Positions 1,755 to 34,274 of a DNA stretch of 36,137 nt are shown here, piece by piece. The stretch comes from a bacterium (lineage in GTDB: Bacteria; UBA6262; WVXT01), in NCBI GenBank assembly GCA_035530055.1, contig DATKVN010000045.1, positions 1-36,137 on the forward strand, written 5' to 3'. Each line of letters opens with the position of its first letter. Position 1 is the first letter of the stretch. Under the pieces are notes generated by a model. That model searched no databases. It worked only from the letters and a program-made list of their open reading frames with translations, and was not told the DNA's origin. A program made the translations under genes and the position numbers.

Positions 1755-3371
1755 ATGGCAAAGCAAATGAAGTTTAATGAAGAGGCGATGCGTGCAATAA
1801 TGAGTGGTGTAGACCAGCTGGCAAATGTGGTGAGAATCACTCTGGGGCCAAAGGGCAAGTATGTAGTTCTGGATAAGAAATTTGGTTCGCCCACCATTAC
1901 CAATGACGGAGTGACTATAGCTAAAGAGATTGAACTTAAGGATCCTTTTGAGAATATGGGCGCTCAATTGGTAAAAGAGGTTGCCTCCAAAACAAACGAC
2001 GACACTGGTGACGGTACTACTACGGCAACTCTCCTTGCCCAGGCAATTGTGCGTGAAGGAATAAGGAATATCACTGCTGGAGCTGACCCTATTCATGTTA
2101 AGAGGGGAATTGATAAGGCAGTCAAGACAGTAGTAAAGGAGATAAAGCAGAAGAAAAAAGATGTGAAGACTAAGGAGGAAGTTGCACAGGTAGCTTCCAT
2201 AGCTGCCAACAGTCAGGAGATTGGGAACTTAATTGCTGATGCTATGGATAAGGTGGGCAAAGATGGAGTAATCACAGTGGAGGAAGGGAAGGGTGCTGAT
2301 ACCACTGTGGACATTGTAGAGGGAATGCAGTTTGACAGGGGCTACATTTCCCCATATTTCGTTACTGATGCTGAGAGGATGGAAGCGGTGTTGGAGGATG
2401 CCTATGTTCTGCTTACCGATAAGAAAATCAGTTCTATGCAGGACCTTCTGCCGGTGCTGGAAAAAATTATTCAGACGGGCAAGCCCTTTGTCATTATAGC
2501 TGAAGATATAGAAGGAGAAGCTCTGGCTACACTGGTGGTCAATAAGTTGAGGGGAACGCTAAAGTGTGCAGCAGTTAAGGCCCCGGGCTTTGGAGACCGC
2601 CGAAAAGAGATGTTACAGGATATTGCAACTCTCACAAAGGGAACGGTAATTTCGGAAGAGATGGGAATGAAACTTGAAAAAGCAACCCTGGATATGCTTG
2701 GCCAGACAAAGAGGGTGACCGTCGATAAGGAAAACACCACAATTGTGGGGGGTACTGGGAATAAGAAAGATATCGATGCGAGAATTGCGCAAATTAAGAA
2801 ACAAATAGAGGAAACCGACTCGGATTACGATAAAGAGAAGCTCCAGGAGAGGTTGGCGAAGTTAGTGGGAGGAGTGGCTGTAATTAATGTGGGGGCAGCT
2901 ACTGAGACTGAGATGAAAGCAAAGAAGTTCAAGATTGAAGATGCCATGCACGCTACCCGAGCTGGTGTAGAAGAGGGAATTATCCCCGGTGGCGGAATAG
3001 TGCTTTTAGGAGCAACTGAGGCTATTTCTAAATTGAAGACGGAAGATACAGATGAGCAGACGGGGATAAATATTATAAAGAGGGCCTTAGAAGAGCCTTT
3101 AAGGCAGATTGCGGAAAATGCCGGTTTTGAAGGCTCTGTGGTCGTGGAGAAAGTGAGGAAGAGCTCGCCAGGGGTTGGATTAAATGCTGAGACTGGAGAA
3201 TACGTAGACCTAATGAAGGCGGGCATTGTTGACCCGGCTAAGGTAACTCGCCTGGCTCTGGAGAATGCAGCCAGTATCGCTTCAATATTGTTGACTACAG
3301 AATCCTTGGTAACTGACATACCTGAGGAGAAACCTGCCATGCCTCCTATGCCTGGCGGTGGTATGTATTAA
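1755..3371 (+). CDS. groEL: Chaperonin GroEL (Cpn60)
   Basis: Forms the double heptameric ring that encloses unfolded proteins together with GroES. The 538 residues are typical. Visible family features are the N-terminal [12 protein letters not shown] segment (29-40), the nucleotide-binding [11 protein letters not shown] (85-95), the apical-domain substrate region, the [13 protein letters not shown] stretch and the Gly/Met-rich tail ending PGGGMY. AGGGGG lies upstream of the ATG. It is the second gene of the CIRCE-controlled operon. No clear intrinsic terminator follows, only an imperfect palindrome at 3423-3479. The sequence is intact and would be a good phylogenetic marker for placing the genome. 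Confidence 0.98.
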
Positions 3372-3483
3372 GGTATACTGACAGGAAGCGACGTAGTTGA
3401 CTGTCCTTTCCCGATCCCCCATCCCGCCCTCTATGCACTCTAAGATATCTCTTCTTGCTTAAAGGGGAGATAGGGCGGGCTGA

Positions 3484-3620
3484 CGCTATAACTTCATCTT
3501 TTAGCGAAAGCAAAATCCCCAAAAATTCCTTCCACAAACGGATTAGCTACCGTAATTGAAATCAGCCCAAAGTGTTGATATAATCCACCAAACGTGGTTT
3601 ATGATTGCAAGAAAAAGTAC
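3484..3620 (+). repeat. Long inverted repeat, arm A (137 bp)
   Basis: Base-by-base comparison with the reverse complement of 5064-5200 gives no gaps and roughly 18 mismatches over 137 bp, about 87% identity. Similarity fades on both sides of these limits. The arms point at each other and enclose one glycosyltransferase gene and a decayed frame. No transposase is visible between or next to them. This could be two copies of a MITE-like element or the ends of a decayed transposon. Confidence 0.85.
3556..3584 (+). promoter_or_regulatory. Promoter inside repeat arm A, facing the glycosyltransferase
   Basis: TTGAAA (3556-3561), 17-nt spacer, TATAAT (3579-3584), with an extended -10 (TGATATAAT). 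It is fully preserved in arm B on the other strand although the surrounding repeat has diverged. It could drive the GT2 gene at 3958 from about 365 nt upstream. Confidence 0.6.
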
Positions 3621-3957
3621 TCGTGAGAATATTGCCAGGTCGTCAGCTTGACAGCGGCAACAAGGGTTCTTTGTGCCTTCGCTTTAGAAATTAGAGCAAT
3701 TATTATGTTCGTCGTCCATCTTGTCTCAACTGGTGTTTAATACGCAGACGGTCAAAGTGCTGAGCCTCGGCATGCCTGGAAGTAAAAGAGGTGGTCGAGT
3801 GTTTTTTCAGGGGACTTCATACCAGGCGGTCGGTTATTTATAGAGAGATCATCCTTGCATGTATGGTAATAGGTAGAATGGCTTATTTTCATATAGCTTT
3901 AAAAGACATTGATAATAAAGAAAAGAGATGTTAATATAAAATTCAGGATTGGATAAT

Positions 3958-4710
3958 ATGGATAAAAAAATATTAAGTGTAGATATAATAATTCCCGTCT
4001 ATAATGAAGAGGGCTGCTTACAAAAAAATGTGCTTATCTTATATAATTATTTAGAGAAAACAGCTGATTTTTCTTGGAATATTATCATAGCTGAGAGTGC
4101 TTCTACTGACAAAACTTCGCAAATCGCAACAGACTTAGCATCAGAATATAAGAGGATTCTATATGTCCACATTCCGGTGAAAGGTAGAGGTTATGCTCTT
4201 AGAAAGACGCTCCTTGAAAGTAACGCTGATATTGTATGTTATACGGATGTGGACCTTTCTATTAATTTACGTTATTTAAAGCTCTTAATTGAAGGTATAA
4301 CTTGTGGCTTTGATGTATCTATAGGTTCAAGATTAATGCAGGGCTCGAGAGTGAAAAGAAGGTTAAAGCGCAAAATAATTTCAAGAATATATAATTTTTT
4401 GATTAAAGCTTTATTTTTTAATAGATTTTCAGATGCGCAATGCGGGTTCAAGGCACTAAGAACTGATGTTGCGAAGCAGATTGTTCCACTGGTGAAGAAC
4501 AATAATTGGTTTTTTGACACAGAGCTTTTACTTTTGGCAGAGTATAATAAATATAGAATATTTGAGATTCCCGTAAAATGGACAGAAGACGTAAAAACAA
4601 GAGTTTATATGACAAAGGTCATATTGCAGTTCCTAGCTGGTCTTCTGCGTATGAGATTTTCAATTCATAAAAATAGAGTTAGGAATAATACAAAACGGGA
4701 ACCATGGTGA
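3958..4710 (+). CDS. GT2 family glycosyltransferase (dolichyl/polyprenyl-phosphate sugar synthase type)
   Basis: Probably transfers a sugar from a nucleotide donor to polyprenyl phosphate on the inner membrane face. The 250 residues open with VDIIIPVYNEEGCLQ (GT-A fold, about residues 7-21), followed by ESASTDKT, KGRGYALRKTL, and YTDVDLS near residue 95 as the metal-binding Asp motif. DAQCGFKALR matches the 'D.QCGFK' signature of DPM1-like enzymes. There is no C-terminal membrane pair. I chose ATG 3958 because AGGA at 3945-3948 is correctly spaced; a TTG at 3949 is also possible. It is A+T-rich and lies between inverted-repeat arms, isolated from the main glycan locus, which suggests acquisition. 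The next membrane protein (5581) could be a GT-C enzyme that uses its lipid-linked product. Confidence 0.85.
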   Translation: MDKKILSVDIIIPVYNEEGCLQKNVLILYNYLEKTADFSWNIIIAESASTDKTSQIATDLASEYKRILYVHIPVKGRGYALRKTLLESNADIVCYTDVDLSINLRYLKLLIEGITCGFDVSIGSRLMQGSRVKRRLKRKIISRIYNFLIKALFFNRFSDAQCGFKALRTDVAKQIVPLVKNNNWFFDTELLLLAEYNKYRIFEIPVKWTEDVKTRVYMTKVILQFLAGLLRMRFSIHKNRVRNNTKREPW

Positions 4711-4716
4711 AAATGA

Positions 4717-5010
4717 GTGACGCCACGTGTCTTTAGATATCGCTTTCCAGGAGTAGTAAAAAGAACCAGTAATTACTTTGTACTATATACGAATATGATG
4801 GGCAGAAAATGGTAGTACATCAACGTAAAGAAAGAAGACAATGTAAGCTTTCAAGTCATCTCTAATGGGACTGAGCGTCAGTTTAAACGTGAAGATGGTC
4901 TTAAATATAAATACGGACTCTCAAAGCCAGAATTTTTCGCTCTATTATTTTTTCTTGTAGTTGCTAACTTATGCACAATAAATTTTATTAATCGAGAGAA
5001 TTATATTTAG
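4717..5010 (+). pseudogene. Decayed reading frame of unknown function with one membrane segment
   Basis: A frame readable from GTG 4717 is broken by TAG at 4813-4815 and resumes to TAG 5008-5010. The second part (about 64 residues) has a hydrophilic stretch followed by one hydrophobic segment FFALLFFLVVANLCTINFI. There is no convincing start or ribosome site. It lies in the same frame as the preceding glycosyltransferase, separated by two stops. I do not recognise the protein. It may be a gene remnant left by rearrangement at the inverted repeats, or chance. Confidence 0.35.
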
Positions 5011-5063
5011 TTTTGGCATTATATATGTTATTGGGCGAAGCACATAGAAATAAGTGATTAGAA

Positions 5064-5200
5064 GTCCTTTATCTTGCAACCATAGACCATGTTTGGTAAA
5101 TTATATCAACACTTTGGGCTTATTTCAATTCTGGCAGCTTATCCGTTTGTGTAAATAATTTTTGGGGACTTTGCTTCCGCTAAAAGATGAAGTTGTAGCG
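5064..5200 (-). repeat. Long inverted repeat, arm B (137 bp)
   Basis: Reverse complement of arm A (3484-3620) at about 87% identity without gaps. Arm B continues into a hairpin-rich segment (5194-5255, TGTAGC...GCTACA) that arm A lacks. Small apparent frames overlapping the two arms share the peptide LKDEV only because the DNA is repeated. Confidence 0.85.
5100..5128 (-). promoter_or_regulatory. Promoter inside repeat arm B, reading leftward
   Basis: On the minus strand TTGAAA (5128-5123), 17-nt spacer, TATAAT (5105-5100) with TG one base before the -10. It points inward, antisense to the glycosyltransferase at 3958. Confidence 0.5.
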
Positions 5201-5465
5201 ATAGAACAATCGCCTAAAATGGAGATAAAGATTAGGCTTTGCTGCTACAAGAGAGCGGACGACCACAAAAGACACCATAATGGTGGCCTACCAATTGATA
5301 CTCTAAAGATGCCTTCCTATGTTTCCTATCTAATTAATTTCTACCGTAGTGAATGAGGGTTATTTGTTTCTTATTATTATTGATAAAAACAATCAAATTT
5401 GGTATAAATAAAGCGACAATTACCGCTCCTTTTTTCAATTTTATCTCTAATGCAAGCTTCTTGAC
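5201..5465. other. Non-coding stretch between repeat arm B and the tRNA remnant
   Basis: Contains an imperfect hairpin to about 5255 and otherwise A+T-rich sequence. A 64-codon frame here (5162-5356) begins inside the repeat arm and has no ribosome site, so I do not call it a gene. Nothing else is recognised. Confidence 0.5.
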
Positions 5466-5512
5466 GGAGAGGTGCCTGGGGGACTGAAGGGGCGCATTTG
5501 CTAAACCTGTAG
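5466..5512 (+). pseudogene. 5' half of a broken tRNA-Ser (GCT anticodon)
   Basis: GGAGAGGTG (5466-5474) matches a serine tRNA acceptor strand plus positions 8-9. The D-arm-like GACTGAAGGGGC follows, and then TTTGCTAAACCTGTAG, an anticodon arm with GCT. The 5' anticodon stem lacks about two bases that would pair with AACCT. The long variable arm, T-arm and 3' acceptor strand are missing, so it cannot be functional. Serine tRNA genes are common integration targets. The fragment sits at the edge of the A+T-rich patch, as expected of an old attachment site or excision scar. Confidence 0.6.
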
Positions 5513-5580
5513 TAGTGATTATAGATAATGTAAAGAAATTTCGAAAGAAAAACGTCTTCCACGAGACAATTGAGATTTAC

Positions 5581-7197
5581 ATGATAAATTTTAAAGATAT
5601 CATTAAATTCAAAAAGGCAACAAAAACGCAAGAGTATTTCATAGTACTTATTAGTTTCTTATTTTTGGTGTTCGGATTTCTTGCATTTACTGGTACACTT
5701 TTTTCCGGGTTTCATTTTACAGTTGATCATGAAATGGTTAGAATCAACGATCAGCTCAAGCATAAAGACTTTTGTCACGTGGCGAAAGGGGTAATTTCAA
5801 ACGATCTAAATAAACGCTTTAGACCTTTTTACTATTTACACAGGGTTCTACAAACGCGATTGTTTGGAATAAATTTTACTCTGTGGTATATCTATAATGG
5901 TTTGCTTGCCGCTTTCTGTGCCTTTTTTCTTTATCTCTTTGCCCGTAATGCCAATTTCTCATTTGCTCAATCATTATTTTTTTCATTCTTGACATTATTG
6001 GGACCACAGGCTGCAATCTGGTGGAGATTAGGTCTATCTGAAACGCAAGGAATGTTTTTTCTCGCTTTATGTTTATTTTTTTTGGCAAAGAGCGTTTACG
6101 CCTACAGGCATAATGTTCTTTATAATTTGGCTTTTGTTGTTTCTCTAATTATAACCTCACTTTGCAAGGAAAGCTTCATAGTTTTAATTCCCGCGATATT
6201 ATTTTGGAAAATATGGCTCTATAGTTCGCGAAATAAAATTTCATTTATGGAGGCTATTTACAAAAATTTATTTTCAATAAGTCTTCTGGTATTGATAATG
6301 CTAATTGAACTATATATCATTATCGCCTTTGTCGGGACAAATAAATTAGGCTATGTAGGCGTGGATCAAAATATTCATTTATTCAGATTATTGGGAAGGT
6401 CAATATATTTTACTATAAGAAGAGGACCTTTTATTTTGGCTTTATTTGGGGTGTTTTTGATTATGCGGTCGCGGCTGAATAATGATCAAAAGTTTTCAAT
6501 CTATGAGATATTTAAAGTTTTTGTAGATAACTTTTTAAAAATAATTATCTTGTTTTCATTAATATTTTTTCCACAGGCATTTTTATACAATAAAACGGGT
6601 TTTTGGGATAGATATTTTCTCCCTGCCTTTTTGGCATTTTCTGTCTTAATTATTTATTTGCAAAGAGAGATTAATAAGTCCGGAAAAATAAGCTATTTTT
6701 CTCAAAAAATATTTGTCATATTGCTGATTATTATGCTTTGGTTTAAGGTTGAGCCTACTATACGTATAGCTAAGGCTTTTACAAACGAGGGAGTTGCAAC
6801 CAATTCATTCCTTAAATCGATTGCAGAGAATACAAATGAAGATTCAGAAATTGTAATTGCCTCGGACCCTGTGGATAATTTTGAATGGAGCATTTCAATT
6901 TCAACTTATTTGAAATTAGTAGGCAATAGAAACAACCATTATTTTATATGGATTGAGACAGACTGTATTGTTCATAATTCAGAATTCAGCGAACGCCTTA
7001 GGAAGGAGATAAAAGCGAAATTCAAGGATAAAGATTTAACAGATATTGATGATTTTCAGAAAATTGAGTGTGTTGGTATTTTCCCAGGGCTTGAAAAAAC
7101 ATTCCTTGCTCAATCCTCAACATGGTTCAAAAGAAACAGATATCAAAGAGAAGCTTCTGACAAATTTGTAGTGTACATAAAAAAAGACGGCACCTAA
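5581..7197 (+). CDS. Multi-pass membrane protein, probable GT-C type glycosyltransferase
   Basis: 538 residues from the ATG chosen here. About ten hydrophobic segments follow an N-terminal membrane helix near residues 20-40, and a soluble C-terminal part of about 130 residues follows. After the first helix comes FTVDHEM, whose Asp sits where GT-C enzymes (PMT/ArnT-like) keep their catalytic acid. RFRPFYYLHRVLQ and TGFWDRYFLPAF resemble loops of such integral-membrane transferases. These enzymes use polyprenyl-phosphate sugars on the outer face, which fits the GT2 gene upstream. A GTG at 5515 is possible but lies in the tRNA remnant without a ribosome site. The start at 5581 has only weak GAGA upstream. 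The gene is A+T-rich compared with its neighbours. Family assignment rests on topology and a few residues. Confidence 0.7.
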   Translation: MINFKDIIKFKKATKTQEYFIVLISFLFLVFGFLAFTGTLFSGFHFTVDHEMVRINDQLKHKDFCHVAKGVISNDLNKRFRPFYYLHRVLQTRLFGINFTLWYIYNGLLAAFCAFFLYLFARNANFSFAQSLFFSFLTLLGPQAAIWWRLGLSETQGMFFLALCLFFLAKSVYAYRHNVLYNLAFVVSLIITSLCKESFIVLIPAILFWKIWLYSSRNKISFMEAIYKNLFSISLLVLIMLIELYIIIAFVGTNKLGYVGVDQNIHLFRLLGRSIYFTIRRGPFILALFGVFLIMRSRLNNDQKFSIYEIFKVFVDNFLKIIILFSLIFFPQAFLYNKTGFWDRYFLPAFLAFSVLIIYLQREINKSGKISYFSQKIFVILLIIMLWFKVEPTIRIAKAFTNEGVATNSFLKSIAENTNEDSEIVIASDPVDNFEWSISISTYLKLVGNRNNHYFIWIETDCIVHNSEFSERLRKEIKAKFKDKDLTDIDDFQKIECVGIFPGLEKTFLAQSSTWFKRNRYQREASDKFVVYIKKDGT

Positions 7198-7337
7198 CAT
7201 TGCGTAAGCGAAAAATAGATTTCGCTCATCTTGCTTACGAGAGACCGCTAAACCAGTTTTTCAAATTCAAATATGGCGCTTTCACGCTTTTTTCAGGTGA
7301 AGAGTGGCCCTTAGATATGGAGGGCGAAGGGGTTGTT

Positions 7338-23798: not shown

Positions 23799-25946
23799 TT
23801 GTCGGAAAAGAAAAGGACATATGATATTATAGTTCCTGTTTATGGGGCATTGTCCTATTTGAGGCAGTGCGTTAATAGTATACTGAAAAACACAAAGCAT
23901 CCGTACAACTTAGTTATAGTTGATGATGGCAATAGTCCGATCATAAAGGAGTATCTGAGGACAATAAAATCAGCACGGATCATTACTAATAAGAAAAACT
24001 TAGGATGGCTTAAGAATTGCAATATCGGAATCGAAAACACTGAGAACGATGTTGTTTTACTAAATTCCGATACCATGGTAACTGAGAGGTGGCTTGAGAA
24101 AATGGACAGGTGTGCATACAGTGACTCCAGGATTGGGATGGTGAACCCGCTCAGCAATAATGCCCTTTTTCTTTCCATTCCTCATTCCTCTGTTTTTAAT
24201 GCAATTCCAGCTGGATTTACTGTGGAAAGTTTTGCTGGTCTTGTGTCAGAATTATCGGAGTGTCAGTATCCATCAATACCGACAGTTCTTGGCTTTTGCC
24301 TTTTGATTAAAAGGAAGATTTTTAATCGAATTGGACTATTTGATGAGAAGCTGGAGGTGGGCTATAGGGAAGATGATGATTTTTGTATGAGAGCAAAGAG
24401 GAAAGGTTACGGGGCAGTTTGCTGTGATGATGCATTTGTCTACCACTATGGGAAAAAGAGTCTTGCTGATTCGCCAGATAAGGAAGTGCATCACGCGAGG
24501 GCTGTTAAGAATAAAAATAATTCTTTGTCATATTTACGTGCGAAATTGTTAACAAAGATATCCGAAGTTTCACCCGAATACAGAGATAAGGTAAGTATAA
24601 TTACGCCAGTTTATAACACAGAAAAATATCTTGAGGAGGCAATTAGAAGCGTCTTAAGGCAGAATTACTCTAATTTCGAATTAATAATTATTTTTGATGA
24701 TGGCTCTACTGATAACTCTCTAAATATAGCCAGGGAATTTGCCAGGCAGGATAAGAGGGTTACAGTAATCACATTGAAAGAGAACCGGGGTTTTGCTGTA
24801 GCTAGAAATGAGGGATTAAGGAGAGCTAAGGGGGAATTTATTACTTGTATGGATTCTGATGACATAATGCTACCCGACGCTATAAAGACGAGGGTAGAAT
24901 TTTTAAATTCTCATCCTGAAGTTGACCTTGTATTCGGGAAAATTCATAAAGTCATAGACAAGGAAGGGAATCCAATAGAAAATGCCTTTTCCGAAGAGAT
25001 AGAACAGTTTAACAGGAAAAAGAAAGACAATAAATTTTATGAGAAAGTAAAGAAATTAGAACTTTGGGTGCTCGGCGTGGATGTAACAAGTATATTTCGA
25101 CGAAAGCTTCTGTTTCAAACAGGTTATTATGAGGAGAGTTTATTGGCGAGCGCCGATAAGGATTTCTTTTTCAGAATTTTTAGAAGGTCGAATCCAGCCT
25201 TTGTCCCCGAGCCAATCATCCTCTACAGGCTGCACGAGTCCAATTTGTCAGGGATGTTGGATAAAGCGACTCGTGAGTGGGTTAGGAGGCCGGAGAATAC
25301 AGCCCAGATTCGCTATCTTGAAGAAATTTTGAGGCATCACAGAAGAGAAATAAAGGAGCCCAAGAAGGTATTTAGCGGGGTTAGATTACTGGATGTTAAG
25401 GAAGGAGAGAGGTCGATGAAAAAGATTGAGAAAGGCAATTTTAATGAAGGCTCGATTGGAAAACCTGGTTCAGGTAATAATCGTATGTTAGAAGGACCTT
25501 CCCATGTTGAACTTCTTCTGGGGCAAATAGGACATATGGCTGAGGTTATTGATAGACTCCGGTTAGAAATTAAGGAACAGCAAATAGCTATCGTTGCCAA
25601 GGACCAGCACATCGATAATCTGAATAAGGCTATCGCAGCCAAGGACCAGCATATCAATAATCTGAATAAGGCTATCGTTGCCAAGGACCAGCATATCAAT
25701 AATCTGAATATAGCGATCGTTGCCAAGGACCAGAATCTGAATAAGGCTATCGTTGCCAAGGACCAGCATATCAATAATCTCAATAAGGCTATCGTTGCCA
25801 AGGACCAGCATATTGCAAATTTGGACGGATTTATAAGGGACTTAACAGGAGAAATTGTAAAGATTAAGAAATATTCAGTATTCTATAATTTATTATCGAG
25901 ATTTCGAAAAGAATTATTAATGTGGTTTGGCAAAAGCAGGAAATAA
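23799..25946 (+). CDS. Tandem GT2 glycosyltransferase with repeat-built coiled coil
   Basis: 715 residues with two GT-A domains. The first (about 5-250) has YDIIVPVYGALSYLRQC, VVLLNSDTMVTERWLEKM and YREDDDFCMRAKRKGYG. The second (about 265-480) has VSIITPVYNTEKYLEEAI and DSDDIMLPDA. Two active sites could add two sugars in turn to the glycan. After about residue 590 come six copies of a 14-residue unit (AKDQHINNLNKAIV), predicted to form a long coiled coil, then a basic amphipathic end YNLLSRFRKELLMWFGKSRK that may touch the membrane. Start TTG 23799 has AGGTAGGA in front, 6 nt after wzt. Coiled coils in glycan loci often set chain length by measuring (as in WbdD), a tempting but untested parallel. 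Confidence 0.88.
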   Translation: MSEKKRTYDIIVPVYGALSYLRQCVNSILKNTKHPYNLVIVDDGNSPIIKEYLRTIKSARIITNKKNLGWLKNCNIGIENTENDVVLLNSDTMVTERWLEKMDRCAYSDSRIGMVNPLSNNALFLSIPHSSVFNAIPAGFTVESFAGLVSELSECQYPSIPTVLGFCLLIKRKIFNRIGLFDEKLEVGYREDDDFCMRAKRKGYGAVCCDDAFVYHYGKKSLADSPDKEVHHARAVKNKNNSLSYLRAKLLTKISEVSPEYRDKVSIITPVYNTEKYLEEAIRSVLRQNYSNFELIIIFDDGSTDNSLNIAREFARQDKRVTVITLKENRGFAVARNEGLRRAKGEFITCMDSDDIMLPDAIKTRVEFLNSHPEVDLVFGKIHKVIDKEGNPIENAFSEEIEQFNRKKKDNKFYEKVKKLELWVLGVDVTSIFRRKLLFQTGYYEESLLASADKDFFFRIFRRSNPAFVPEPIILYRLHESNLSGMLDKATREWVRRPENTAQIRYLEEILRHHRREIKEPKKVFSGVRLLDVKEGERSMKKIEKGNFNEGSIGKPGSGNNRMLEGPSHVELLLGQIGHMAEVIDRLRLEIKEQQIAIVAKDQHIDNLNKAIAAKDQHINNLNKAIVAKDQHINNLNIAIVAKDQNLNKAIVAKDQHINNLNKAIVAKDQHIANLDGFIRDLTGEIVKIKKYSVFYNLLSRFRKELLMWFGKSRK
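25587..25829 (+). repeat. In-frame 42-bp tandem repeat (six units)
   Basis: Units start at 25587, 25629, 25671, 25713, 25746 and 25788. All are 42 bp except the fourth, which is 33 bp and lost three codons. The core is GCTATCGTTGCCAAGGACCA followed by an AT-rich half. Near-identity at the DNA level shows recent expansion or conversion. All changes keep the frame. Confidence 0.93.
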
Positions 25947-28835: not shown

Positions 28836-31349
28836 ATGAAGATATTAATTGTTAGCCATAATTATTTTCCAGCTATTGGCGGGGCTGAGAAGAAAATAAA
28901 AGAGATCTCAGAAAGGCTGGTAAAATCCGGGGAAGAAGTTACTGTCTTTTCTTCTAATGCCCAAACTACCGAGGCATATATCCATCCTGAAATTCCTTTG
29001 CTGCCTGCCAATAGTGAATTGATAAATGGTGTGAGAGTAAGAAGGTTTCCCGTTTACCAGGGGATGCGACCATTAATAGATAGTGTGCATAGGTATTTCT
29101 ATAAGCATGGGTTGCGATTTGATGATGTTGTGAGGACTATATGGAATGGACCAATCATATTCAATATGCTACCGCACATTATCAAAGAAAAAACCGATAT
29201 TATTATTGCCACACCATTTCCATTTTTGAATATGTATTATGCCTATATAGCAAAAAAAATCAGGAAAATACCAATGGCAGTTATTCCTTGCCTGCACACA
29301 GAGGATGAATGGGCTTTCAATAGAAAGATAATGTATAAAGTCTTGTCAGATACTGAAATGATACTAGTAAATACAGATTACGAAAGAAATTATCTAATAA
29401 CTAAGGGAATCGAAAAAGAACGTATCTTCATATTAGGGGATGGAATCAACCCACAGGAGTTTAATAGTTCGAATCCACAGAAGTTCAGGAGAAGATACGA
29501 TATTGGTAACGCTCCTGTGGTTCTGTTTGTGGGAAGAAAGGAGAAGGGGAAAGGGATTGATACATTGGTTGATTCTATGAACATAGTCTGGAGAAAAATT
29601 CCTCAGGCTAAACTTATCCTGGCAGGGACAAGGACATCCTATTCGAAAGCAATAGAAAAGAAGGTCTTTTCGTTAGATGCGAGAAAAAGAAAAAACATCA
29701 TACCTATAGATAATTTCCAAGATAGTGAGAAATCAGACCTTTTTGCCAGCTGCGATATATTTGCAATGCCATCAAGAGTAGAATCTTTTGGGATAGCCTA
29801 TCTGGAAGCGTGGGCATCAGGCAAGCCAGTTATTGGATGCCGCATAGGTGCAGTGGCTTCTCTTATTGAACAGGGAAAGGATGGCATACTGGTGGAGTAT
29901 GACAACGAGCAAGAATTAGCGAGTGCCATACTGAGACTTCTCACCTATGAAGGCCTGAGAAGGAAGCTCGGGGAAAATGGCAGAAAGAAGGCATGTGGCA
30001 AATATACCTGGGATATTATTACAAAGCGTTTTAGGGAGAATCTCAATCTGGCCATATGTAAGGATAATAGGAGTAGCAGACTTCAGTCTGCGTTTATTAG
30101 GAAGCAGGGAGTCATTAGAAAAAGTTTGGTAATTCCAGAAATATTTGATACTGCAAAAATAGTTATGATGGACCTCAAAGATGCGATAAAAAAGATATTA
30201 AGAAGGGTCCCGCTACTCTTCTACATAACATATCATCCTTATCACAAAGTAAAAATCCATCTTCTTATAAAGAACAGTCCTATGAAACTCAAAACTTATA
30301 ATGAACAATTGGCAGAGGAAGAACAAAAGCGCCGTTCTCCTATAGCCAGGGCAATGCCCACGTTTATGGCCATGAATATGGATACTCAATGTAACTTACG
30401 CTGCATAATGTGCATACGTGGAAAATATCCTCAAGAAGAGATCAATGCGCTTAGATATGATTTCGAAATCTATAGGCAAGTAGCTAATGAGACTTTTCCC
30501 TATGCGAGCTGGGTGCAGTTAGCTACGGCAGGAGAGCCGCTTATGGCTGGTAATCTTATAGAACAATTAAGAATTATTAACAAATACTCTATGAAGTTAG
30601 ACCTGGTTACCAATGCGACTCTGCTCAACAATGATGACTTAATAAAAAAAATTTTACAAGTTCCTGGTTGTTTACATATATCAATTGATGGAGCTACAAA
30701 GGAAACCTATGAATCCATTAGAATTGGTGCAAAATTTGAGCAAGTGATAGAAAACATTAGAAGACTCAATCGAATTAGGGAGAAACTTTGTGCTGCGGAC
30801 AAGACGAGATTGCATTTTTCAGTTGTGTTGATGAAGCGAAATATTAAGGAATTGCCAAAGTTAATAGAACTCGCTAAAAAACTTGGAGTGGACTCTGTAG
30901 ACTGTTCCCATGTAACTATTTTCTATGAAAGCATCAAAAATGAATCTTTAGTTTATCATAAGGAACTTGCCAATTGTTATATGATGGTTGCCCAAGAAAA
31001 AGCCAATGAGTTAAATATCCACTTGAATATTCCCCCATTATTTAAACCGGTTGATGATGTGCAGAGCAAAAGGTCAGAGAATAACTTAAAAAGCAAATTT
31101 AAAATATGCCCATTTTTATGGAAACGAGCTTATATCGAGTGGACTGGAAATGTTTTACCATGTTGTGCTCCCGACCCTCCAGTAATGGGCAATGTTAAGG
31201 AAAAACCTTTTCGGGAAATTTGGAATAATGAACTTTACCAGGAAATGAGAAGGAGATTGAATACCGATAATCCTTTTGACTGTTGCAAGCATTGTTTTAT
31301 CGTTAATCCTGCTGATGAGCAAGGTTTGTTTCATATCGATGGAGAATAA
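28836..31349 (+). CDS. Fusion: GT4 glycosyltransferase + radical SAM/SPASM enzyme
   Basis: 837 residues in one uninterrupted frame. Residues 1-405 form a GT4 enzyme: MKILIVSHNYFPAIGGAEKK, VLFVGRKEKGKGIDTLV, and MPSRVESFGIAYLEAWASGK with the E-x7-E motif. A linker (about 410-505) begins with RSSRLQSAF (412-420), encoded by a GTAGC palindromic repeat. Residues 510-837 are radical SAM: C519-x3-C523-x2-C526, ATAGEPLM, and a SPASM-type auxiliary cluster with CPFLW, TGNVLPCCAPD, and CCKHCF near the end. SPASM enzymes modify peptides or sugars, so a radical change of the glycan is plausible. AAGGGAT precedes the ATG. An internal ATG pair near 30164 could also make the second part alone. Confidence 0.88.
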   Translation: MKILIVSHNYFPAIGGAEKKIKEISERLVKSGEEVTVFSSNAQTTEAYIHPEIPLLPANSELINGVRVRRFPVYQGMRPLIDSVHRYFYKHGLRFDDVVRTIWNGPIIFNMLPHIIKEKTDIIIATPFPFLNMYYAYIAKKIRKIPMAVIPCLHTEDEWAFNRKIMYKVLSDTEMILVNTDYERNYLITKGIEKERIFILGDGINPQEFNSSNPQKFRRRYDIGNAPVVLFVGRKEKGKGIDTLVDSMNIVWRKIPQAKLILAGTRTSYSKAIEKKVFSLDARKRKNIIPIDNFQDSEKSDLFASCDIFAMPSRVESFGIAYLEAWASGKPVIGCRIGAVASLIEQGKDGILVEYDNEQELASAILRLLTYEGLRRKLGENGRKKACGKYTWDIITKRFRENLNLAICKDNRSSRLQSAFIRKQGVIRKSLVIPEIFDTAKIVMMDLKDAIKKILRRVPLLFYITYHPYHKVKIHLLIKNSPMKLKTYNEQLAEEEQKRRSPIARAMPTFMAMNMDTQCNLRCIMCIRGKYPQEEINALRYDFEIYRQVANETFPYASWVQLATAGEPLMAGNLIEQLRIINKYSMKLDLVTNATLLNNDDLIKKILQVPGCLHISIDGATKETYESIRIGAKFEQVIENIRRLNRIREKLCAADKTRLHFSVVLMKRNIKELPKLIELAKKLGVDSVDCSHVTIFYESIKNESLVYHKELANCYMMVAQEKANELNIHLNIPPLFKPVDDVQSKRSENNLKSKFKICPFLWKRAYIEWTGNVLPCCAPDPPVMGNVKEKPFREIWNNELYQEMRRRLNTDNPFDCCKHCFIVNPADEQGLFHIDGE
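30073..30095 (+). repeat. GTAGC-type palindromic repeat in the hinge of the fusion gene
   Basis: GTAGC with stem GCAGACT/AGTCTGC (30076-30082, 30085-30091) and loop TC, then GTTTA. It is almost the same sequence as the intergenic copy at 34352-34374. It is read in frame as SSRLQSAF between the GT4 and radical SAM domains. Confidence 0.85.
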
Positions 31350-33324: not shown

Positions 33325-33579
33325 ATGACCAGGAGAATGAGATTAGCCAATGGTCTTCTTAAGATTGGAGAGATGGCCAGAGAGGCGGGAGTGTTAGTTT
33401 CCACTATCAGGTATTACACCGATGTCGGTCTTTTAAGAGTAGTGGCAAACACTCAAGGTGGCTATCGGCTCTATGACAGAAGAGACACATTGGAAAGAAT
33501 CCACACCATCAAGACCATTAATGGTCGAAAATGGACACTTACTGAGATTAGAGTAGAGTTAGAAAAGCGCAATCAGTAA
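33325..33579 (+). CDS. Minimal MerR-like DNA-binding protein 1
   Basis: 84 residues. LLKIGEMAREAGVLVSTIRY is the MerR winged-helix start, and YTDVGLLRVV and GGYRLYDRRDTL continue to the second wing helix. The long dimerisation helix and effector domain of normal MerR regulators (usually 110 residues or more) are missing, so this is only the DNA-binding domain. It could be an excisionase-like DNA-bending factor or a stripped regulator. A very strong ribosome site, GGAGGTGA, precedes the ATG. It is first of three tandem paralogues. Its position after the structured RNA and before a large secreted protein suggests local control, which is inference only. Confidence 0.85.
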   Translation: MTRRMRLANGLLKIGEMAREAGVLVSTIRYYTDVGLLRVVANTQGGYRLYDRRDTLERIHTIKTINGRKWTLTEIRVELEKRNQ

Positions 33580-33611
33580 GGCCATACAGCAGGTTGCGAG
33601 CAGGGAAAGGA

Positions 33612-33634
33612 GTAGCAGACCTCGGTCTGCGTAA
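33612..33634 (+). repeat. GTAGC-type palindromic repeat between MerR-like genes 1 and 2
   Basis: GGAGTAGC with perfect stem GCAGACC/GGTCTGC (33615-33621, 33624-33630) and loop TC, then GTAAAA. Confidence 0.85.
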
Positions 33635-33667
33635 AATAGTAAAGTTACGTGGAAAGGAGATGAAGAT

Positions 33668-33928
33668 ATGCCTGGGAAGAAAACTGATAAAAACCTGCTT
33701 AGAATCGGCGAAATAGCCAAAGTAGCAGAGGTCCCATTATCAACTATAAGGTACTACACGGATATAGGTCTTTTGAAAGTAGCCAGCCATACAAAAGGAG
33801 GCTACAGGCTTTATGATAGAGAGGAGACTTTAAGTATTATAAGGAAAATAAAACCAGTAGTGGACAAACGAAGGACCTTATTGCAAATCAAAGAAGATTT
33901 AGCCAAAAGAGCTAAAAAGAAAAAATGA
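33668..33928 (+). CDS. Minimal MerR-like DNA-binding protein 2
   Basis: 86 residues, paralogous to the genes on both sides: LLRIGEIAKVAEVPLSTIRY, YTDIGLLKVA and GGYRLYDREETL. It differs in its lysine-rich tail (AKRAKKKK), which would raise unspecific DNA affinity. No effector domain. AAAGGAG lies before the ATG. It sits 88 nt after gene 1 and 67 nt before gene 3, probably in one transcript. Divergence between the three copies is well above that of the flanking repeats, so the duplication is old. Confidence 0.85.
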   Translation: MPGKKTDKNLLRIGEIAKVAEVPLSTIRYYTDIGLLKVASHTKGGYRLYDREETLSIIRKIKPVVDKRRTLLQIKEDLAKRAKKKK

Positions 33929-33936
33929 GAATTAAT

Positions 33937-33960
33937 GTAGGGGTTCGATTCATCGAACCC
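33937..33960 (+). repeat. GTAGGGG-type palindrome
   Basis: TGTAGGGG start with perfect stem GGGTTCGAT/ATCGAACCC (33941-33949, 33952-33960) and loop TC, between MerR-like genes 2 and 3. It shares the opening of the composite repeats at 92 and 18649. Confidence 0.8.
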
Positions 33961-33995
33961 GTGATTGAAGCGAAACGAAAGGAGGTGAAGGAAAA

Positions 33996-34274
33996 GTGGG
34001 TAGGAAGAAATCACCGCCACGAGGTTTACTCAAAATTGGCAAGATGGCTAAACTGGCAGGTGTACTACCATCAACTATAAGGTACTATACAGAACTCGGT
34101 CTATTGGAAGTAGCCGCTACTACGCCCGGGGGTCAGAGACTTTACGATAAAAAAGATACTTTGAGTAGGGTGAGGATGATTAAGAACATCGAAAGGCAGC
34201 ATCTGCCTTTACAGACAATCAGGAAAATCCTTGAAGACCACAGGGCAAAAGCGCTGGAATCCACGCTCAGATGA
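33996..34274 (+). CDS. Minimal MerR-like DNA-binding protein 3
   Basis: 92 residues from GTG 33996, with GGAGGTGA at 33981-33988. LLKIGKMAKLAGVLPSTIRY, YTELGLLEVA and GGQRLYDKKDTL show the same winged helix. GQR replaces GYR, so the wing residue of MerR proteins differs. The C-terminal helix (RKILEDHRAKALESTLR) is longer than in copies 1 and 2 but still too short for a usual dimerisation coiled coil. The GTAGC repeat begins 3 nt after the stop. Confidence 0.83.
   Translation: MGRKKSPPRGLLKIGKMAKLAGVLPSTIRYYTELGLLEVAATTPGGQRLYDKKDTLSRVRMIKNIERQHLPLQTIRKILEDHRAKALESTLR

Follow-up and report, generated by a model that had tools for sequence, protein, structure and literature searches.

Why should a glycosyltransferase gene lie between two inverted copies of the same promoter-bearing segment? 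The question is raised by a stretch of 36,137 nucleotides of DNA from an uncultured bacterium (contig DATKVN010000045.1; all of it was analysed and is called the window here), a 36-kb contig rich in polysaccharide genes, in which two such arms, A and B, face each other. The inverted repeat is real. The initial annotation described it as 137 bp long and about 87% identical without gaps, and this description stands almost to the letter: each arm measures 138 bp, 120 of the 138 positions are identical with no gaps, the longest perfect runs between the 18 mismatches are 21 and 17 bp, and 1441 bp separate the two arms. With a BLAST E-value of 6e-43 in the organism's own genome, the similarity is not due to chance. 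The arms are also the sole pair of separated inverted repeats 60 bp or longer among 30 repeat entries listed from about 497 kb sampled from the own genome and its relatives (a survey size given by the motif-scan total minus two contigs); five of the 30 entries listed are inverted, the arm pair and four self-palindromes. The features on which the argument turns, with strand, are the following:

1755 to 3371, + strand: groEL, the conserved left neighbour, an ORF named from its sequence (protein 95% identical on contig C50 of the relative G003)
3484 to 3621, + strand: arm A, the promoter segment before the glycosyltransferase (GT) block, defined by its identity to arm B; the genome holds only two copies
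3556 to 3584, + strand: candidate promoter of arm A, TTGAAA-17-TATAAT with an extended -10, reading into the GT gene (11 of 12 consensus bases)
3601 to 3825, + strand: leader of the GT gene and start of the block, its first 21 bp forming the inner end of both arms (91% identical on G003:C50)
3958 to 4710, + strand: family-2 GT gene (PF00535, E 2.8e-20), in an ORF open from the TTG at 3949
4816 to 5059, + strand: start of a membrane-protein gene, truncated and broken, ending at arm B (homologue on G003:C50)
5063 to 5200, - strand: arm B, the putative inverted copy, which terminates the membrane-protein gene; defined by its identity to arm A
5100 to 5128, - strand: candidate promoter of arm B, antisense across the block (11 of 12 consensus bases)
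5260 to 5422, + strand: segment X, a promoter-like spacer found right after the groEL spacer in two G003 contigs
5464 to 5515, + strand: copy of a tRNA-Ser(GCU) gene, 5' part only, lying to the right of X and defined by its match to an intact locus

What do the arms carry? As had been proposed, each contains an inward-pointing TTGAAA-17-TATAAT promoter with an extended -10: both have the 17-bp spacer, a TG before the -10 and 11 of the 12 consensus bases, both lie inside their arms, and together they are the top two of the 15 promoter-like sites between 3372 and 5600, where shuffled sequences give 7.2. Judged from its sequence, arm A likely drives transcription of the GT gene. The candidate antisense promoter of arm B is recognizable by consensus alone, and antisense RNA made from it may be a by-product. 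Could this RNA be the reason for which arm B persists, selection having kept it to tune GT expression from an antisense promoter? That both promoters retain 11 of 12 consensus bases despite the 13% divergence of the arms would fit such a role, but the conservation is not significant: the promoter part differs at one position in 29-31 bp (P = 0.05-0.07), so that the idea of a promoter kept better than the remaining arm finds no clear excess behind it. The relative's block, moreover, sits behind a different promoter-like segment and lacks arm B, and the GT leader has no Rfam match up to E 1. A selected antisense role is therefore quite improbable.

Would the arms make sense as a switch? The initial annotation had suggested that the segment might invert, the arms then being the recombination sites of a phase-variable element that turns the GT block around. 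Inverted repeats around a surface-sugar gene are indeed a usual setting for invertible DNA (PMC8748976). However, the promoters lie within the arms and face inward, so inversion would return the GT gene to an equivalent promoter. A Pfam scan of 23 window ORFs, 3 of which belong to no family at all, found neither a recombinase nor a transposase family, which bears out the earlier remark that no transposase is visible (the scan left out groES, groEL, two of the three MerR-like ORFs and overlapping minor ORFs). The arms offer no perfect run longer than 21 bp, and the block has the same orientation in the one relative that possesses it. The repeats do flank a segment, as those of an inverton must, but turning that segment would leave expression as it was and no recombinase family is encoded nearby among the 23 ORFs. 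With inward promoters in both arms, 18 of 138 positions mismatched, no recombinase family in the window and an unchanged orientation in the relative, phase variation is left unsupported: inversion between the arms is unlikely, and we consider a phase-variable function highly improbable.

If the arms are not a switch, how did they come to enclose this block? The block contains more than the one glycosyltransferase initially seen between the arms: the GT gene is there, but so are a leader of roughly 225 bp ahead of it and, behind it, the cut-short beginning of a membrane-protein gene. All three parts recur in G003, a genome of the same genus in which two contigs, C50 and C76, carry the end of groEL. 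In reverse complement, C50 reads groEL, X, leader, GT gene and membrane-protein gene, with 91% identity over window positions 3601-3825, 93% over 3902-4851 and 87% over 4854-5059; the GT proteins are 88% identical, and dN/dS for the GT gene is about 0.37 (0.052/0.141). On C76, groEL and part of X are followed directly by the homologue of window position 7298 onward, with no block. Segment X is 89% identical on C50 (5281-5422) and 85% on C76 (5260-5363). In two genomes of the sister family, other genes come after groEL. The order of X and the block has thus changed between the two close relatives: the block stands between groEL and X in the window and after X on C50.

Two details of C50 are informative about the arms. 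First, it has no arm B, and its membrane-protein gene continues past the point at which the window switches to arm B, with an open frame that reaches the end of the contig and counts 359 codons from the first ATG; the gene start left in the window is 76% identical to it over 51 residues (87% at the DNA level). The C50 gene matches no Pfam family and shows no detectable kinship with the window ORF at 5581. Second, C50 has no arm A except for the 21 innermost bases, which stand at the start of its block and match arm A at 20 of 21 positions and arm B at 19 of 21; the next best place on C50 reaches 14 of 21.

These comparisons favour, with a probability of about 0.6, an old inverted duplication of one promoter segment in a rearrangement-prone spacer. 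Because arm B carries 21 bp from the block side, its most plausible origin is the junction between arm A and the block, copied in inverted orientation. As those 21 bp belong to the left end of the block, either the copy was taken where arm A already joined the block, or an arm once present on C50 was lost save for its inner end. Taken together with the gene that ends at arm B and is open in the relative, the 21-bp junction suggests that arm A is the original and arm B a later inverted copy. Arm A would then be the original promoter feeding the GT block, and arm B would be arm A together with the block's first 21 bp, inserted in the opposite direction at the other end of the block, where it landed inside the neighbouring membrane-protein gene and cut that gene off. 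The mechanism we infer is a copying or template-switch accident, such as a template switch during replication. The duplication of the arm would be part of the rearrangement that left the block between groEL and X; since the arms also bound the block at this place, copying and relocation may have been a single event. When did this happen? The arms differ by 13% (95% interval 8-20%), which fits the synonymous divergence between the species (dS of 0.14 for the GT gene and 0.20 for groEL); the duplication is therefore old, with an age near that of the species split. The close relative thus suggests that the arms go back to a single copying accident, in a spacer that has been reshuffled, and not to a genetic switch or a working mobile element.

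The duplication reading leaves some facts less well accommodated. Simple duplication alone does not explain the changed order of X and the block; C50 may have lost the left arm, and its 21 bp would then be what remains of an independently inserted arm; the polarity of the change comes from one 4.7-kb contig, C50, in a bin that is 86% complete with 4% contamination; and the position of the arms, precisely at the two edges of the displaced block, would follow more directly from a transposon. In that alternative, a non-autonomous mobile cassette, served by a transposase encoded elsewhere, would have the arms as its long terminal inverted repeats; having picked up the GT gene together with the beginning of the adjacent gene, it would have inserted between groEL and X. 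This accords with the inverted ends, the passenger gene and the gene cut by one end, and also with the spacer: without 3484-5200, groEL and X would be 172 bp apart, as against about 130 bp on C50 and 251 bp on C76. The lack of a transposase family among the scanned window ORFs weighs on both sides. Yet the spacer is short on C50 and C76 while the block is present on C50, following X. Further points count against the cassette: (i) target duplication, a sign of insertion for which 14 boundary offsets were compared, does not exceed 2 bp, although a longer one could have decayed; (ii) there is no third copy of the arm in the own genome, a draft, or in five other genomes of the phylum; (iii) C50 has the block at the same locus without arms, keeping the inner end of the left one only; and (iv) arms that differ by 13% would make poor ends for an active element. 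The mobile cassette first envisaged is partly supported, by a block lying in a spacer that is short in two relatives; the duplication above 2 bp and the further copy are missing, and the left inner end occurs by itself on C50. We therefore regard the cassette as doubtful. A more specific version, a non-autonomous element with 138-bp promoter-bearing terminal repeats that takes up surface-sugar genes of its host along with fragments of adjacent genes and, through inward promoters of its own, has whatever it takes up transcribed from both sides, is improbable. Each arm was also considered as a miniature element (MITE) in its own right and rejected: the region of arm A has no inverted pair of at least 8 bp, that of arm B has pairs only away from its ends, and the genome holds just two copies.

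How widely was the arm sought? The own genome comprises 1.68 Mb in 106 contigs and is 96% complete; being a draft, it may have lost repeats. Within it the arms match each other only, as two copies at a single locus, and the five other genomes of the phylum contain none at E 0.01. A DNA search of 60 relatives returned both arms and one 37-bp partial match in an unrelated genome (E 0.001), and a 20-base arm core had a single match in the genome contig collection, inside an unrelated coding sequence. Viral contigs and plasmids gave no matches, and phages two weak ones (E 0.4). An rRNA promoter was rejected as the source of the arms, as there is no match upstream of 16S in G000, the own genome, or in G001. 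A common promoter module is unconvincing: a scan with the full motif gives 12 matches against 7, 3 and 6 in shuffled sequences. A profile model of the two arms has its best weak partial match upstream of a DNA polymerase I-like gene (G002:C31, E 4.7e-4) and the next upstream of a MoxR-like ATPase gene (G003:C90, E 0.024), both genes being named by reading their translations; three weaker matches in G003 have E-values of 0.064, 0.08 and 0.44, the last at the junction of X and the block on C50. These weak matches may reflect a promoter style common to the genus, which the motif scan did not establish.

The surroundings of the arms have features of their own. From 3372 to 7298, gene content after groEL varies among the window, C50 and C76, which marks a rearrangement-prone spot for surface-sugar genes. 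The stretch 5371-5515 is a 78% match to the genome's intact tRNA-Ser(GCT) locus (G000:C36) and reads as a broken copy of it, consisting of the promoter and the 5' part of tRNA-Ser(GCU); on C50 the promoter part immediately precedes the GT block instead. ARAGORN predicts no complete tRNA in the window. At 5227-5252 lies a short repeat (AAAG.TTA.GCTTTGCTGCTACAAGA) that is dispersed in many copies through the genus, and short repeats of the GGAGTAGC type also lie between window genes. Farther along, 42-bp tandem repeats lie in frame at 25575-25855, in the C-terminal portion of an ORF for a two-domain glycosyltransferase, 28836-31349 is a single ORF that fuses a group-1 glycosyltransferase with a radical SAM/SPASM domain, and 33325-34274 contains three successive short MerR-like regulator ORFs that resemble one another, the first of them MerR by Pfam.

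How does the locus compare with known systems? In invertons it is the turning segment that contains the promoter, and the repeats are recognised by an invertase (PMC8748976). Both systems have promoters and inverted repeats close to genes for glycan synthesis (PMC8748976); here, by contrast, the promoters are in the repeats, facing inward on both sides, and the scanned window ORFs include no recombinase family. Mobile insertion cassettes depend on a transposase supplied from elsewhere (PMC6542083, PMC5444012); examples are MIC231 of Bacillus cereus (cited in PMC6542083) and the qnrS2 cassette of plasmid pAC3, which has 22-bp ends and disrupts mpR (PMC5444012). The present locus shares with them a passenger gene, inverted ends, the lack of a transposase and one end in a disrupted gene. 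Unlike the 22-bp ends of the pAC3 cassette, however, its arms are 138 bp long, 13% apart and equipped with full promoters; a target duplication above 2 bp and additional copies are lacking, and the inner end of its left arm occurs alone in a relative.

If the cassette reading were true, it would add a gene-capturing element to a little-sampled phylum (6 genomes). If the duplication reading is true, a pair of inverted promoters can form and last with neither a switch nor a transposon, and scans that take inverted repeats close to sugar-transfer genes as a sign of phase variation should be read with caution. The remaining parallel is with duplicated or "mobile" promoters, and a 2012 study in NAR reportedly dealt with promoter propagation. 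As in those systems, a short promoter segment that brings no mobile gene with it exists more than once; the difference is that here there are two copies only, inverted and at one locus, and the second does not stand in sense orientation before a gene.
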